From NCBI GenBank assembly GCA_015491735.1, contig WFVH01000095.1:1-45071 (forward strand): DNA of 45,071 nt, written 5' to 3'. The notes below the pieces were generated by a model that had not been told where the DNA came from, did no database searches, and was given only the letters and a program-made list of their open reading frames with translations. Below are positions 18,189-45,071 of the stretch, piece by piece. Position 1 is the first letter of the stretch. Each line of letters opens with the position of its first letter. The position numbers and the translations under genes are program-made. The stretch is from Gammaproteobacteria bacterium. Its GTDB lineage: Bacteria > Pseudomonadota > Gammaproteobacteria > Thiohalospirales > Thiohalospiraceae.

Positions 18189-19148
18189 TTAACCTCCCGA
18201 TATTTCACCTTGGCAAAGCGTCTGTTGATTATTGATATGTGCAACAAGAATTTTCCTGAACACATCCGGATCCTTGCTGTGGGTAATCTCCCCCTCACGG
18301 GGGAAATGGAGATCGTTCAGCCGTGACAACCAGAAACGCAGGGCCGCCGCCCGCAAAATTACCGGCCAAGCATCCGCTTCACACGACTGGAACGGACGCT
18401 GCTGACGGTACCCCCGCAACAGGGCGCGCAGCCGTTTTTCATCGAACAAGCCGCTGCCGGAGATACACCAGTCATTGACGGTAATGGCCAGGTCATACAG
18501 CAGCAGACCATCACAAGCATAGTAAAAATCGATAATACCGGATAGCCGCCCGCCAACGAACAGCGCATTGTCCCGAAACAGATCAGCATGAATCACACCA
18601 CGAGGAAGGGCCTCGAAATGCTCGTTCGACTGAAACGCGAGTTCACTCTCCAGCAGCTGGCGATCCCCGGCTGCAAGCAATGGCTGCAATTTTTTCGCGG
18701 TTCGCAACCACCAGGCAGGGCCGCGGCTGTTGGCACGGCGCAGCGGAAAGGCCTGCCCTACCCGGTGTATTTTGCCCAGCGCCGTACCCAGAATGTGGCA
18801 ATGGGCCTCCGTGGGCTGCTCTATACTCCTGCCAGGCAGGCGCTGCACCAATGCAGCCGGTTTCCCCTTGAGGGAACGCAGATAGCGCCCCTGATTATCG
18901 GCAACCGGGTGGGCAGACGGAACACCATGCTCTGCGAGAAAGGCCATCAGTTCCAGGAAATAACCCAACTCTGCGGCCCCCAGTTGCTCGAACAGGGTAA
19001 GAACATACTCCCCTTTTTCAGTCGTAACAAAATAGTTGGTATTCTCTATGCCGGCACTGATTCCCTGAAAACCGATCAGTTCGCTGTGGGAGTAGTGAGC
19101 CAGAAACAGTTCGAGTTCGGCGCGATCGACGACGGTGTAGACAGACAT
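18189..19148 (-). CDS. thrB: Homoserine kinase ThrB (APH-fold type)
   Basis: Phosphorylates homoserine to O-phosphohomoserine in threonine synthesis. The 319 residues match the aminoglycoside-phosphotransferase-fold homoserine kinase (thrB_alt) rather than the GHMP type of E. coli. The catalytic loop IHADLFRDN has His187, Asp189 and Asn194, and the metal-binding Asp207 is in IIDFYYACD. The opening SVYTVVDRAELELFL is typical of the family. It starts 3 bp after the DUF2782 stop, so the two genes are probably co-transcribed, a pairing common in gammaproteobacteria. Confidence 0.95.
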   Translation of the reverse strand: MSVYTVVDRAELELFLAHYSHSELIGFQGISAGIENTNYFVTTEKGEYVLTLFEQLGAAELGYFLELMAFLAEHGVPSAHPVADNQGRYLRSLKGKPAALVQRLPGRSIEQPTEAHCHILGTALGKIHRVGQAFPLRRANSRGPAWWLRTAKKLQPLLAAGDRQLLESELAFQSNEHFEALPRGVIHADLFRDNALFVGGRLSGIIDFYYACDGLLLYDLAITVNDWCISGSGLFDEKRLRALLRGYRQQRPFQSCEADAWPVILRAAALRFWLSRLNDLHFPREGEITHSKDPDVFRKILVAHINNQQTLCQGEISGG

Positions 19149-19151
19149 CTG

Positions 19152-19496
19152 TTACCAACGAAACAGTATCCACTGATTGACGGGCCGGCCCTGCAGATCG
19201 TTGCGGCGGCTGTCCAGATCACCATCCCCATCGGTATCGATAAGATAATAGGGGAACCCTTTGGCCGGAGTAATCTTGATCATATAGAGACGGCCGTTGA
19301 CCCGGTACTCCTCCACCGAAGTCCTGCCGCCAGAGGTGGTGATGGTAATCTCCGGCCCGGGAACATTCCCCTGCATCACCTCCGGCATGGGAAGTTCTGA
19401 ACGGGACACATCAGCCGGGGGCTGCAACGGCTGTGGAGCAACGGCCCACGCGGAAGAACCAACGAGCAAAAAGGAGAGCAGCGATAACAGAAACAT
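19152..19496 (-). CDS. DUF2782-family exported protein
   Basis: The ATG at 19496 gives 114 residues with a signal peptide (MFLLSLLSFLLVGSSAWA) and a small domain containing EYRVNGRLYMIKITPAKGFPYYLIDTDGDGDLDSR, the hallmark of DUF2782 proteins found next to thrB and polA in gammaproteobacteria. Function is unknown; the DTDGDGDLD segment could bind calcium (inference). The frame stays open for another 88 codons upstream, but that part lies inside a 246-bp inverted-repeat element and reads as non-coding. The first two bases of the chosen ATG are the terminal bases of that element, and no clear Shine-Dalgarno precedes it. Confidence 0.85.
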   Translation of the reverse strand: MFLLSLLSFLLVGSSAWAVAPQPLQPPADVSRSELPMPEVMQGNVPGPEITITTSGGRTSVEEYRVNGRLYMIKITPAKGFPYYLIDTDGDGDLDSRRNDLQGRPVNQWILFRW

Positions 19497-19740
19497 TAAC
19501 CCGGCCACATAATATGTCGCGTTCAGCCGTACTGTGCGCGTCTGCGGCAAGGCGTCGAAACGCCGCTGTAGCACGCCTGCAGCCGGTTTCGGCAACGCAG
19601 ACCGCGGGCGCGCACAGCACGGCCTGTCTTTTAGAATCAATGAGTCAGGAGCCTCAGGCCTCTCCCCTCCCGGCGTTGCGCGCCTTGACAGGGAAGAGGC
19701 CTGAGGCTCTGAATACGACATATTATGTGGCCGGGTTAAT
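19495..19740. mobile_element. 246-bp element with 25-bp perfect terminal inverted repeats
   Basis: 19495-19519 and 19716-19740 are exact reverse complements over 25 bases (outer end ATTAACCCGGCC, inner part ACATAATATGTCG). Between them are two further nested palindromes: a perfect 15-bp stem (19649-19663 with 19695-19709), and an interrupted stem pairing 19532-19546 with about 19596-19616. No transposase-sized frame and no obvious target duplication is present. It reads as a MITE-like or palindromic non-autonomous element between the DUF2782 and LOG genes. Confidence 0.65.
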
Positions 19741-19763
19741 AGCATGGCGGTAATGGTCACGGG

Positions 19764-20486
19764 TCATAGATCGAGTAGTGCTTCCCTCTCTTGCGCCGAG
19801 GGTTCAAAACCACGGTGTTCATAGTGGCAGAAGATAGCATCTACCACCTGCTGTGGTTTGTCCAGTACCTGAATCAAATCCAGATCTTCCGGATCGATGG
19901 TTTTCTCCTCCACCAGCGTGGTCTTGAACCACTCCAGCAACCCGGTCCAGAACGGAGCATGCACCAGAATGATGGGGATACGCCGGGTCTTGCCGGTCTG
20001 CACCAGGGTCAGGATCTCCGCCAGTTCATCCAGCGTACCGAACCCCCCGGGCAGCACCACGTAGGCAGTGGCATACTTTACAAACATCACCTTGCGGGAG
20101 AAAAAGTGGCGGAAACTGAGCGAAATATCCTGGTAGGGATTGCCGCTCTGCTCATGTGGAAGCTGGATATTCAGGCCGATACTGGCGGACTTGCCGGCAT
20201 AGGCCCCCTTGTTGGCCGCCTCCATGATACCGGGGCCGCCACCGCTGACCACCGAAAATCCCGCATCGGAAAGCGCGCGAGCGATATCTTCGGCCAACTG
20301 GTAGTAGGGGTGATCCGGTTCGGTGCGCGCCGAGCCGAAGATACTGACTGACGGTTTGATGCGCGCCAGACGCTCGAACCCCTCCACGAACTCCGCCATG
20401 ATCTGGAAAATCTTCCAGGACTCCCGGGTCAGTTCGGTGTCGTTGATGGGAGTGAGACTTAATTGATGATATTTGTTTTTATTCAT
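19764..20486 (-). CDS. LOG-family Rossmann-fold protein (TIGR00730-like)
   Basis: A 240-residue protein of the LOG/lysine-decarboxylase-like family. Signatures are SGGGPGIMEAANKGA from residue 81 and LPGGFGTLDELAE from residue 145, which form the nucleotide- and ribose-5-phosphate-binding site. Members studied elsewhere act as cytokinin-type nucleoside-5'-monophosphate phosphoribohydrolases; the bacterial substrate is not certain, and PpnN-type nucleotide turnover is an alternative. It is upstream of the thrB pair on the same strand but separated from it by the 246-bp element. Upstream lies the repeat-rich region before polA. Confidence 0.9.
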   Translation of the reverse strand: MNKNKYHQLSLTPINDTELTRESWKIFQIMAEFVEGFERLARIKPSVSIFGSARTEPDHPYYQLAEDIARALSDAGFSVVSGGGPGIMEAANKGAYAGKSASIGLNIQLPHEQSGNPYQDISLSFRHFFSRKVMFVKYATAYVVLPGGFGTLDELAEILTLVQTGKTRRIPIILVHAPFWTGLLEWFKTTLVEEKTIDPEDLDLIQVLDKPQQVVDAIFCHYEHRGFEPSAQEREALLDL

Positions 20487-20674: not shown

Positions 20675-20825
20675 GTAACGATTCAGCATAGTATGAAACA
20701 AGCCGGTAACTATTCAGATTGCCCCTGGAATTCGTCAGTTCAAGGCGAAAAATGGGAGTTTGCGCGTGTAAATGACCTTTTTCAACGCAGAAATGGCGAA
20801 TTCCAGGGGCGAGCTGAATAGTTAC
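20675..20825 (+). repeat. MITE-like palindromic repeat, copy C with 8-bp target duplication
   Basis: A full 151-bp copy flanked on both sides by ACGTTCTT (20667-20674 and 20826-20833), a perfect 8-bp direct repeat. Termini are GTAACGATTCAG and CTGAATAGTTAC. The arms pair as CCCCTGGAATTCG/CGAATTCCAGGGG. The target duplication is direct evidence that this unit moved by transposition. Confidence 0.9.
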
Positions 20826-23721: not shown

Positions 23722-23873
23722 GTAACTATTCAGCTTACCTCTGAAATCCGCCATTTCTGCGTTGAAAAATGGTCATTTACACGCGTAAACTCTCATTTTT
23801 CGCCTTGAACTGACGAATTTCAGAGGCAATCTGAACAGTTACCAGCCTGTTTCATACTATGCTGAACAGTTAC
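23722..23873 (-). repeat. MITE-like palindromic repeat, copy E with 8-bp target duplication
   Basis: A full 152-bp copy in reverse orientation, 40 bp after the polA stop. It is flanked by GCATCAAT at 23714-23721 and again at 23874-23881, a perfect 8-bp direct repeat. Its arms carry CCTCTGAAA/TTTCAGAGG where most copies have CCCCTGAAA/TTTCAGGGG, so both sides of the stem changed together. Confidence 0.9.
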
Positions 23874-24113
23874 GCATCAATAATAGACCAAGACAGTCGA
23901 TAGTAAAGCAACCTTCCGATCAAGATATCACACGCAGTCGATGGTCATTCCATTGGCAAGCGTGATAACGTGGAGCTGAAGGAGACTCGAAGCCTCTGAA
24001 CGTTTGTTTTTACATGAAGAACCTGGCGCAAATTTTGATGTCTTGCTGCGCATCGGCACACAACGGCTGAATACGATATATATTGTTGCCGCGTTAATAA
24101 CATTAGGCCAATA
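23874..24113. other. Non-coding stretch between repeat E and the fba terminator
   Basis: About 240 bp without a convincing gene. The only recognisable content is a half-copy of the GGCCGGGTTAAT end motif near 24066-24102 (CTGAATACGATATATATTGT followed by GCCGCGTTAATAA). The rest shows no promoter or RNA signature that I can support. Confidence 0.4.
24066..24102 (+). repeat. Half-copy of the 246-bp element end
   Basis: Resembles the right end of the 19495-19740 element: CTGAATACGA, then a TATAT stretch, then TTGCCGCGTTAATAA, with a few mismatches. There is no matching inverted partner nearby, so it looks like a solitary decayed end. Confidence 0.45.
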
Positions 24114-36993: not shown

Positions 36994-37713
36994 ATGCAGG
37001 TTCCCCGTATCTACCTCCCGGCCCCCCTGACCAACGGCAACAGGCTGGAACTCGGCAAACAGGCTGCCCATCATCTCCTTAACGTACTGCGCCTCAAACC
37101 CGGCGCCACCCTGATTCTTTTCGACGGCCGGGGCAATGCCTGCCAGGCCACGCTGGAGCCATCGGCGCAGGTCACTGTCGGCCAGCCGATTCAGGAAGAA
37201 ACCGAGTCCCCCTTGCGGATCCGGCTGATCCAGGCCATCTCCCGCCGTGAACGAATGGATCATGTCATCCAGAAAGCAGTAGAGCTGGGGGTCGACACAA
37301 TCATACCGGTTTCGAGCCAGCGCAGCATGGTCAAGCTGAGAGGTGAGCGGGCAGCAAACCGGCTGCGGCACTGGCAGGGGATCATTGTCAGCGCCTGCGA
37401 ACAGTGCGGTCGCAGCCGGCTTCCCGTTCTCAACAGCATTTCCACCCTGGATGCAGCGCTGTCCGAGCCGGAACAGGGGTCAAGACTGGTGCTGGATCCT
37501 GCCGGGGGAAACACCCTTTCCAACCTGTCCGCACCGGATAGCAGCGTCACGCTGCTAATCGGCCCCGAGGGCGGATTATCGGCCGATGAGATCCACCAGG
37601 CGGAACGATCCGGATTTACCGGCGTGCGCCTGGGACCACGCACTCTCCGGACCGAAACGGCCGCCATCACCGTTCTCTCGGCCCTGCAGGTGCTCTGGGG
37701 CGATCTTGGCTAG
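36994..37713 (+). CDS. rsmE: 16S rRNA m3U1498 methyltransferase RsmE
   Basis: SPOUT-family SAM-dependent methyltransferase that modifies U1498 of 16S rRNA. The 239 residues have the N-terminal PUA-like part (RIYLPAPL, HHLLNVLRLKPG) and the knotted C-terminal SAM site (LLIGPEGGLSADEI, then LGPRTLRTETAAI). It starts 3 bp after bioA and ends the metF-bioA run. Its stop codon TAG lies inside a short repeat that also occurs at 41026. Confidence 0.95.
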   Translation: MQVPRIYLPAPLTNGNRLELGKQAAHHLLNVLRLKPGATLILFDGRGNACQATLEPSAQVTVGQPIQEETESPLRIRLIQAISRRERMDHVIQKAVELGVDTIIPVSSQRSMVKLRGERAANRLRHWQGIIVSACEQCGRSRLPVLNSISTLDAALSEPEQGSRLVLDPAGGNTLSNLSAPDSSVTLLIGPEGGLSADEIHQAERSGFTGVRLGPRTLRTETAAITVLSALQVLWGDLG

Positions 37714-37738
37714 TACTCTTTCAAGGTAATGAATCAGG
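37711..37738 (+). repeat. 28-bp repeat, copy 1 (at rsmE stop)
   Basis: TAGTACTCTTTCAAGG followed by an AAT-rich stretch ending ATCAG, with one base on the left also shared. The same sequence with two changes occurs at about 41026-41053. Here it starts at the rsmE stop codon. No function is evident. Confidence 0.5.
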
Positions 37739-37788
37739 ACTCAGCGCCCCAAAAAGCCCGGAGCCACATGGGCGCGGGAAATATCAGC

Positions 37789-38678: not shown

Positions 38679-38825
38679 ATTCAGCATAGTATGAAACAAG
38701 CCGGTAACTGTTCAGATTGCCCCTGAAATTCGTCAGTTCAAGGCGAAAAATGGGAGTTTACGCGTATAAATGACCATTTTTCAACGCAGAAATGGCGGAT
38801 TTCAGGGGTGAGCTGAATAGTTACC
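38679..38825 (+). repeat. MITE-like palindromic repeat, copy G
   Basis: A nearly full copy lacking the first bases of the outer GTAACT: it begins at ATTCAGCATAG. It lies 42 bp after the fthC stop and, on the opposite strand, about 100 bp after the aspS stop. Both flanks contain CATC, but no full 8-bp duplication remains. Confidence 0.9.
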
Positions 38826-40753: not shown

Positions 40754-40907
40754 GTTACTGCTCAGCAAGCTGTAGAATTTAAACGTAACTGCTCAGATTG
40801 CCCTTGAAATTCGTCAGTTCAAGGCGAAAAATGTGAGTTTACACAAGGTAAAGGACCATTTTTCAATGCAGAAATGGCGGATTTCAGGGGCAAGCTGAGT
40901 CGTTACC
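40754..40907 (+). repeat. MITE-like palindromic repeat, copy H (second subfamily)
   Basis: A 154-bp copy with the second prefix type (GTTACTGCTCAGCAAGC, then TGTAGAATTTAAAC). The flanks read TAAAAAAC before it and CAAAAAAC after GTTAC, matching at 7 of 8 positions, a probable target duplication. Its right boundary adjoins the U-tract of the terminator following fmdB. Confidence 0.88.
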
Positions 40908-41025: not shown

Positions 41026-41053
41026 CTAGTACTCTTTCAAGGCAATAAATCAG
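41026..41053 (+). repeat. 28-bp repeat, copy 2 (at fmdB stop)
   Basis: CTAGTACTCTTTCAAGG followed by CAATAAATCAG, nearly identical to the sequence at the rsmE stop (about 37710-37738). Here it covers the end of the fmdB gene on the opposite strand. Both copies abut a gene's 3' end. Confidence 0.5.
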
Positions 41054-41325
41054 TCGGAACTGGCCGCCGGACAGCAGCCACCCGCCCCGCAGGGAGCAGG
41101 CGGCTCGCTTTTTGGCTTGTCACCAGCGATATTCTTTTTGTTACCGGACTTGAAATCGGTCTCGTACCAGCCGCTGCCACTGAGCCGGAAACCCGCCGCC
41201 GAGATCAGTTTTTTCAGCTCGGGCCTGCCGCACTCCGGACACTCCTTGAGCGGCTCGTCACTCATCTTCTGCATCGCTTCCAGTTTGTGATCGCAGCTTT
41301 GGCACTGGTATTCATAGATCGGCAT
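41050..41325 (-). CDS. FmdB-family zinc-ribbon protein
   Basis: A 91-residue protein starting MPIYEYQCQSCDH, the signature of the FmdB regulatory-protein zinc ribbon. Cys8/Cys11 and Cys29/Cys32 form the two CxxC knuckles. The C-terminal tail is low-complexity and ends with a CGAGGCC cluster that might bind metal. The ATG at 41325 follows GGGAG; an in-frame start six codons earlier is less likely. The molecular role is not established. It lies upstream of aspS on the same strand, a frequent neighbourhood. Confidence 0.9.
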   Translation of the reverse strand: MPIYEYQCQSCDHKLEAMQKMSDEPLKECPECGRPELKKLISAAGFRLSGSGWYETDFKSGNKKNIAGDKPKSEPPAPCGAGGCCPAASSD

Positions 41326-44920: not shown

Positions 44921-45071
44921 GTAACTATTCAGCATAGTATGAAACAAGCCGGTAACTGTTCAGATTGCCCCTGAAATTCGTCAGTTCAAGGCGAAAAATG
45001 GGAGTTTACGCGTGTAAATGACCATTTTTCAACGCAGAAATGGCGAATTTCAGGGGTGAGCTGAATAGTTA
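44921..45071 (+). repeat. MITE-like palindromic repeat, copy I (right edge of window)
   Basis: A full copy except for the final base(s), in the same orientation as copy A. Over the shared length it differs from copy A at only two positions, and these two sit opposite each other in the hairpin stem (TCG/CGA here, CCG/CGG in A). The window ends inside it. Confidence 0.92.

Follow-up and report, generated by a model that had tools for sequence, protein, structure and literature searches.

The window, which is the whole stretch of 45,071 nucleotides analysed here, carries a short element with inverted ends at the start of a gene for a DUF2782 protein. Upstream is a LOG-type gene and downstream a homoserine-kinase-like gene, presumably the one named ThrB. 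The features of the locus are as follows:

18189–19148, minus strand: downstream gene, homoserine-kinase-like (APH, PF01636)
19152–19496, minus strand: DUF2782 gene (PF11191), read from the ATG at 19496
19494–19495, no strand: second target copy, CA on the plus and TG on the minus strand, giving the TG of the ATG and presumably altered from TA
19496–19739, no strand: 244-bp element, almost certainly a MITE, of IS630 type, TTAACCCGG...CCGGGTTAA, with perfect ends, dispersed copies and empty sites elsewhere
19496–19519, plus strand: left terminal inverted repeat, perfect over 24 nt
19522–19627, plus strand: hairpin module A, 106 nt, sense TTCAG..CAAGGC..CAACGC (model R2, 82.5 bits; fold z −5.6)
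19635–19647, minus strand: IHF-like site in the linker, one mismatch to YAANNNNTTGATW, which we take to be the IHF consensus; shares 3 nt with the end of module B
19645–19713, minus strand: hairpin module B, 69 nt left after deletion of the apical 37 nt, as seen in alignment (R2, 61.9 bits; fold z −7.0)
19716–19739, minus strand: right terminal inverted repeat
19740–19741, no strand: TA target duplication, copy on the LOG-gene side, read from the window sequence (the duplication is demonstrated at other copies via empty sites)
19764–20486, minus strand: upstream gene, LOG-type (Lysine_decarbox, PF03641)

A preliminary description of this DNA had reported a 246-bp element at 19495–19740 with perfect 25-bp inverted ends. 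The inverted repeat is there, and its 25 bp are correct with one flanking A/T pair included. Without that pair, the ends of the element, TTAACCCGG..., are perfect over 24 nt. Judged by the empty sites in congeners, the element proper is 19496–19739, or 244 bp, to which a TA duplication is added. In the window, the two TA copies are unequal, TA and, on the minus strand, TG. With some mismatch the inverted arms reach 32 nt (19495–19526 and 19709–19740, 94% complementary). The nested palindromes described inside were also recovered, as inner arms at 19649–19668/19690–19709 (20 nt, 95%) and 19526–19547/19602–19623 (22 nt, 86%). Folded as RNA, the element has a predicted energy of −162.5 kcal/mol, compared to a shuffle mean of −92.2 (z −14.6).

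The same description had proposed an insertion and suggested a genome search with the element's end. Across the whole of the window's own genome (G000; 2.43 Mb in 101 contigs), the 20-nt end gave 42 matches at up to 3 mismatches and the reversed control pattern gave none. BLAST with the element gave 81 matches in that assembly, many of them the two strands or parts of one place. In a set of 37 genomes of relatives, the element was present in eight, the window's own and all seven congeners (G001 to G007), which form one genus, and absent from the other 29, which are more distant relatives. We then sampled 40 stretches of the own genome and 80 from relatives (79 of the congeners, one of G010), picked around search hits and representing a subset of them. 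Together with the window, these held 195 ends and 53 paired elements of this family, which we call family 1. Carriage by a phage or plasmid was rejected: no phage record matched the element, and plasmid matches were limited to one short match in Azotobacter chroococcum, obtained with two module queries.

Full copies of family 1 consist of an end, module B, a linker, module A, and a second end. Partial copies retain module A only (L036), module B only (L039), or little beyond the two ends (L063). Minimal copies look like two ends back to back (L063, 1533–1570; L147, 1065–1100). Two contigs of the own genome, C1 and C3, end inside the same element sequence (L032, L040), and the assembly therefore undercounts young copies. 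The window itself holds a relic at 24020–24099, the right half of a family-1 element with the end CCGCGTTAATA.

The outward end consensus is TA-TTAACCCGGC[AC]ACA, with the outside T present at 170 and the outside A at 159 of the 195 ends. Conservation of the flanks first suggested a TTAA target duplication. Comparison of filled and empty sites ruled this out: two congeners (G004 and G006) lack both the element and exactly 2 more nt at the site of copy L036, and G006 likewise lacks the element and 2 nt at the more diverged site of L029. Since the empty sites are short by the element plus 2 nt, not plus 4, it is TA that was duplicated at the target. Divergence made the L030 comparisons unreadable and left no exact empty site for the window locus. 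Where the flanking TA is altered, the outward reading is mostly TG; 24 of the 195 ends have G at position −5. The family is thus short, without coding capacity, bounded by terminal inverted repeats and present in many dispersed copies, with TA duplicated at filled sites and precise empty sites elsewhere (L036, L029), and it is near certain that the window feature is a MITE.

A candidate source of the transposase came from a PF13358 search of the eight genus genomes. G004 carries a 1,091-bp IS630 element (L188) with an intact transposase of 341 amino acids (NF033545, 226 bits against a cut-off of 100), ends TTAACCCGGCAATAAAGAA, and a TA flank on either side. Its ends are identical to those of the MITE over about the outermost 12 nt, and the sharing is limited to this outer part. 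In the own genome, the search found no intact IS630 transposase, just two partial matches. The MITE thus has ends in common with an autonomous IS630 element as well as a TA target. We infer from these sequences that it moved in trans: an IS630-family transposase supplied from elsewhere would have recognized the TTAACCCGG... ends of this nonautonomous DNA transposon and integrated it into a TA close to the DUF2782 gene's 5' end. Overall, the locus is likely to be best explained as an IS630-type MITE insertion with a payload of facing hairpin modules.

At the DUF2782 gene, the minus-strand frame remains open right through the element (ORF 19760–19152), since the gain of 246 nt, made up of the 244 bp and one TA, is a multiple of three. 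The element had been thought to supply part of the start codon. It does supply the A of the ATG (minus strand, 19496–19494); the TG belongs to the altered TA copy, and other in-frame starts lie inside the element, among them a GTG at 19508. The ATG at 19496 has no Shine-Dalgarno-like stretch before it (upstream sequence CATATTATGTGGCCGGGTTA), as had been noted before. In two element-free congeners (G005 and G006), an ATGA that overlaps the stop codon of the LOG-type gene opens the DUF2782 frame, and the window element sits between this place and the signal-peptide codons. The native leader is thus not quite replaced, as had been supposed; rather, the element has come between a native start region and the remainder of the gene.

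With the frame kept, two very strong hairpins now part the LOG-type gene from the signal-peptide codons of DUF2782, and the start overlap of the element-free congeners is lost. Translation would now probably begin from the element's end or just inside, at the ATG at 19496 or the GTG at 19508. The locus shows how an insertion can move a gene start and part it from its operon neighbor, yet keep the frame. Copy L029, which by our own reading of the sequence lies in codon 2 of a lipoprotein-like gene, is also in frame. In-frame insertion inside genes as a general habit of the family, like that of the Rickettsia RPE, was rejected. By crude ORF calls on 49 copies, 4 lie inside ORFs, 16 between codirectional, 7 between divergent and 5 between convergent genes, and 17 were unclassified, so that most classified copies are outside genes and there is no strong bias. 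A promoter search of the element end gave two sigma-70-like sites in 1.4 kb, none convincing.

We compared the DUF2782 upstream regions of relatives, since the element could instead be a conserved regulatory leader of this gene. Elements do occur near the same place in three genomes (G000, G002, and G007), and G004 has a 13-nt end-like remnant. Against a leader, no element precedes DUF2782 in G001, G005, G006, or G008, dozens of copies lie elsewhere in the genome, and the elements of G002 and G007 belong to a different subfamily and sit about 4 nt from the window position. This makes a conserved leader very improbable, in agreement with the preliminary description. G003 gave no DUF2782 match. 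On a tree of the LOG-type, DUF2782, and ThrB-like proteins, the genomes with an element (G000, G002, and G007) or the remnant (G004) fall among the element-free G001, G005, and G006, with bootstrap values of 56 to 100. Because the positions are about 4 nt apart and the subfamilies differ, at least two insertions is the simpler reading, and by sequence comparison the site was probably hit at least twice. Recent insertion or active maintenance had been suggested for the window element. Compared with the G002 and G007 elements at almost the same position, it has much less decayed ends, as would fit a younger insertion.

The interior of the element has a shape of its own. Modules A and B, the latter reverse-complemented, have in common a length of 106 nt and the motifs TTCAG, CAAGGC, and CAACGC. 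Taken singly, modules share one predicted fold, with an outer stem, an AA bulge, a short helix, an AAC bulge on the other arm, a seven-pair stem, and an apical hairpin, with fold z scores of −5.6 to −9.7 in the six modules tested. Bulge and internal-loop columns of module A are more conserved (0.93) than the stems (0.74 to 0.81). Within the genus, we analyzed 26 of 30 full-length elements for covariation, excluding L037, L046, L131, and L134 as diverged or broken. Among 95 predicted pairs, 45 keep pairing through two-sided changes, and 302 cells are two-sided, compared to 101 in shuffled alignments (0 of 500 as high) and 32 to 52 in slid ones. In our model, the payload is a facing pair of ~106-nt modules whose stems vary in sequence while the shape stays constant; their conserved A-rich bulges read CAAGGC on one arm and CAACGC on the other. 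The IHF-like linker site is found at up to one mismatch to the consensus assumed above in 17 of 26 elements, exactly in 4, the copies being related and not independent.

A covariance model built first from module A, to which both strands of the palindrome can match, gave 39 matches in the own genome and hits in all eight genus genomes, and none in four genomes outside the genus. Its hits include pairs without TTAACCC ends, which define a second MITE family with ends CTAGTACTCTTTCAAGGTAATAAAT.AGGA. With up to 3 mismatches allowed, the own genome has 94 ends of this family, compared to 4 matches for the control, and the family carries the same facing modules with no linker. Single modules also occur (L317, L323). 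Aligned together, 21 sequences of five module types (set A4) had a covariation score of 0.81, compared to 0.22 when shuffled. From this alignment we built a second model, R2, which therefore derives from this genus alone. R2 modules were found at E values of 1e-4 or better in 39 of 143 gammaproteobacterial genomes with the own one included (38 of 142 others) and, across the phylum, in 51 of 249, own included. The two surveys scored 27 and 15 candidates per genome, respectively, so that copy numbers are lower bounds. The best E values outside the genus reach 1e-22, although these values are rough.

The modules recur between different ends. Among 15 loci examined, module pairs are flanked by at least seven unrelated terminal repeats: TTAACCCGG types, CTAGTACTCTTTC, CTAGTGTCCTGTCACACG, TAGTGGTCC.TCAA, CTAGTGGGCCAAGTGG, TAGTG.CCT.TCCGACTAATTCG, and TTACTAAGACAAACG. 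The second end of one of these loci (L336) was not found. Ends of the TTAACCCGG type also occur outside the genus (L335 and L339). A parent for the CTAG-type ends was sought among 17 PF01609 loci, none of which had those ends. Gammaproteobacterial MAGs that bear the window element's end sequence carry the deposited names Sedimenticola sp., Chromatiales, Thiohalobacter sp., and Thiotrichales.

To this we added a held-out set of 41 modules from 22 genomes outside the genus (L331 to L352), chosen by score and not at random, and aligned by R2. Two-sided compensatory change was seen in 34 of 36 pairs, and 95.3% of cells pair. The covariation score was 0.908, compared to 0.221 shuffled and at most 0.143 slid, in an alignment that is fitted to the model. 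The modules face each other as a pair at 16 of the 22 loci, and six show one module at the threshold used; there are two more modules on the same strand in L333 and one more in L337. The CAAGG motif is altered in 7 of the 41 modules, the orientation of which rests on the model.

The two strands do not behave alike. The held-out modules contain 113 G-U pairs and 20 A-C mismatches, with 37 sequences having more GU and none more AC. In a wider set (127 modules, kept of 137 matches after overlaps and identical ones were removed), the counts are 320 and 77. Covariance-model alignments favor GU somewhat. In the A1 set, which takes one module in each orientation, GU outnumbers AC 148 to 67 in all, and after four mostly-GU pairs are dropped no excess is left (59 to 66). 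The counts should be equal without selection on one strand. The module thus covaries beyond controls on sequences outside the model and tolerates wobble in a strand-specific way, the latter being absent in A1 alone.

We compared the element with known repeats, beginning with Rfam, where one window stretch and six loci gave no match above the gathering score, just eukaryotic miRNA models far below the cut-off. We found no description of the module in the reachable literature, a scope that leaves outside most subscription journals and all supplements. BIMEs are built of facing palindromes, sometimes with an IHF site. Family 1 resembles BIMEs and REPs, including the IHF-bearing BIMEs (PMC2817692), in its facing palindromes with an IHF-like site between them. 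Members of the RAYT-moved group have a palindrome of 20 to 40 nt, tagged by GTAG or CGTC, together with a RAYT gene. REPs measure 20 to 40 bp (PMC3733652); our modules, at 103 to 108 nt inside elements with terminal inverted repeats, are too long for that size range.

Correia elements, or NEMIS (CREE), of Neisseria share with family 1 the MITE form, long inverted ends, and an IHF or IHF-like site (in Correia elements, in the longer forms). In the accessible parts of the sources, they are 104 to 157 bp with a single hairpin formed by the ends, often lie 5' of genes, have a hairpin transcript that binds RNase III, and form a two-form size series (PMC2229807; PMC2649163). In contrast, the window family has two internal facing ~106-nt modules, other ends, and a module common to other MITE families; the likeness, taken from papers, is in anatomy only. 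RUP of Streptococcus pneumoniae (IS630-Spn1) has IS630-type ends, a TA target, and inferred movement in trans; unlike our element, it is 107 bp, and the part of the source available reports no internal structural signature (PMC2229807). CIR repeats of Caulobacter have two hairpin arms and a linker, but as described there are ~110 bp in all, with GANTC in the loop and without TA-flanked MITE ends (PMC2229807). MITEPsy1 of Pseudomonas syringae is, in the text available, a 100-nt MITE with a 4-nt CTAG or YTAA target, probably derived from ISPsy2, with IS5 questionable (PMC3189936). This target is like the CTAG-type ends found here around the same modules; size and ends differ, and the likeness is in target type alone. 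By its description, the MRSC-65-2 motif is nearest in kind to the module: it is a long hairpin with covariation, present dozens of times in a genome and judged to be a mobile repeat, with RNA or DNA left open (PMC11109978). That description also sets it apart, as a single stem with a conserved UYCCGG repeat, which is not conserved in the module.

The excess of G-U over A-C suggests folding of one particular strand, either as RNA or in the form of single-stranded DNA. Conserved bulges, free stems, and strand asymmetry together point to recognition of a folded single strand. In the model we prefer, transcription of the element would yield a folded RNA strand that acts, most likely by offering RNase III or a host RNA-binding protein a site for processing or protection, and with facing modules a transcript from either side would always include one module in the active sense. 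We put forward this functional part tentatively, as a possibility a little short of even. More broadly, we give even odds to the view that this ~105-nt module is a widespread structured element, so far undescribed, of which just one strand folds (as RNA or single-stranded DNA), and that at least seven unrelated gammaproteobacterial MITE families recruited it, mostly as a facing pair that offers one active copy from either side. Transposon parasites with no other relationship would then share it as a survival kit, which a conserved host factor probably reads.

An ordinary decaying MITE with functionless hairpins would need its arms to be repaired by template switching or gene conversion, and long inverted arms in one molecule are indeed known to be corrected against each other. 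The existence of copies with just the two ends (L063) and the loss of strand bias in A1 once four pairs are dropped would also fit. Such repair should, however, erase mismatched bulges, yet these are the most conserved columns; simple decay predicts equal GU and AC, compared to the 113 to 20 and 320 to 77 seen, and the same bulged shape recurs between unrelated ends. We consider this explanation unlikely. A strand-specific fold with phased bulges would also fit if the module acts as single-stranded DNA, a hairpin mark for a transposase or recombinase during replication, as in REP/REPIN with RAYT, with DDE-type ends acquired later; G-T pairs are tolerated in DNA hairpins too, and single modules occur (L317, L323). 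The TA duplications and IS630-like ends of family 1 need no single strand, and we regard this reading, too, as improbable.

MITEs are usually viewed as internal-deletion debris of one IS. If the folded-strand reading we prefer is true, a common folded payload lies between unrelated ends in about one-quarter of the sampled gammaproteobacterial genomes, which would make the MITE interior selectable and exchangeable and give a direct handle on how some MITEs persist at high copy number.

Other traces of these repeats are present in the window. Single second-family ends (CTAGTACTCTTTCAAGG) without a full element lie at 37710–37740 and 41026–41055. Six further R2 matches, at 38.7 to 46.5 bits, lie at 36–140, 20713–20816, 23731–23835, 38711–38815, 40794–40897, and 44959–45063. 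These six are of an AT-richer single-module type, GTAACTATTCAGC..CAAGGCGAAAAATG..AACGC..GCTGAATAGTTAC, a third and very frequent kind of repeat with the same core motif.
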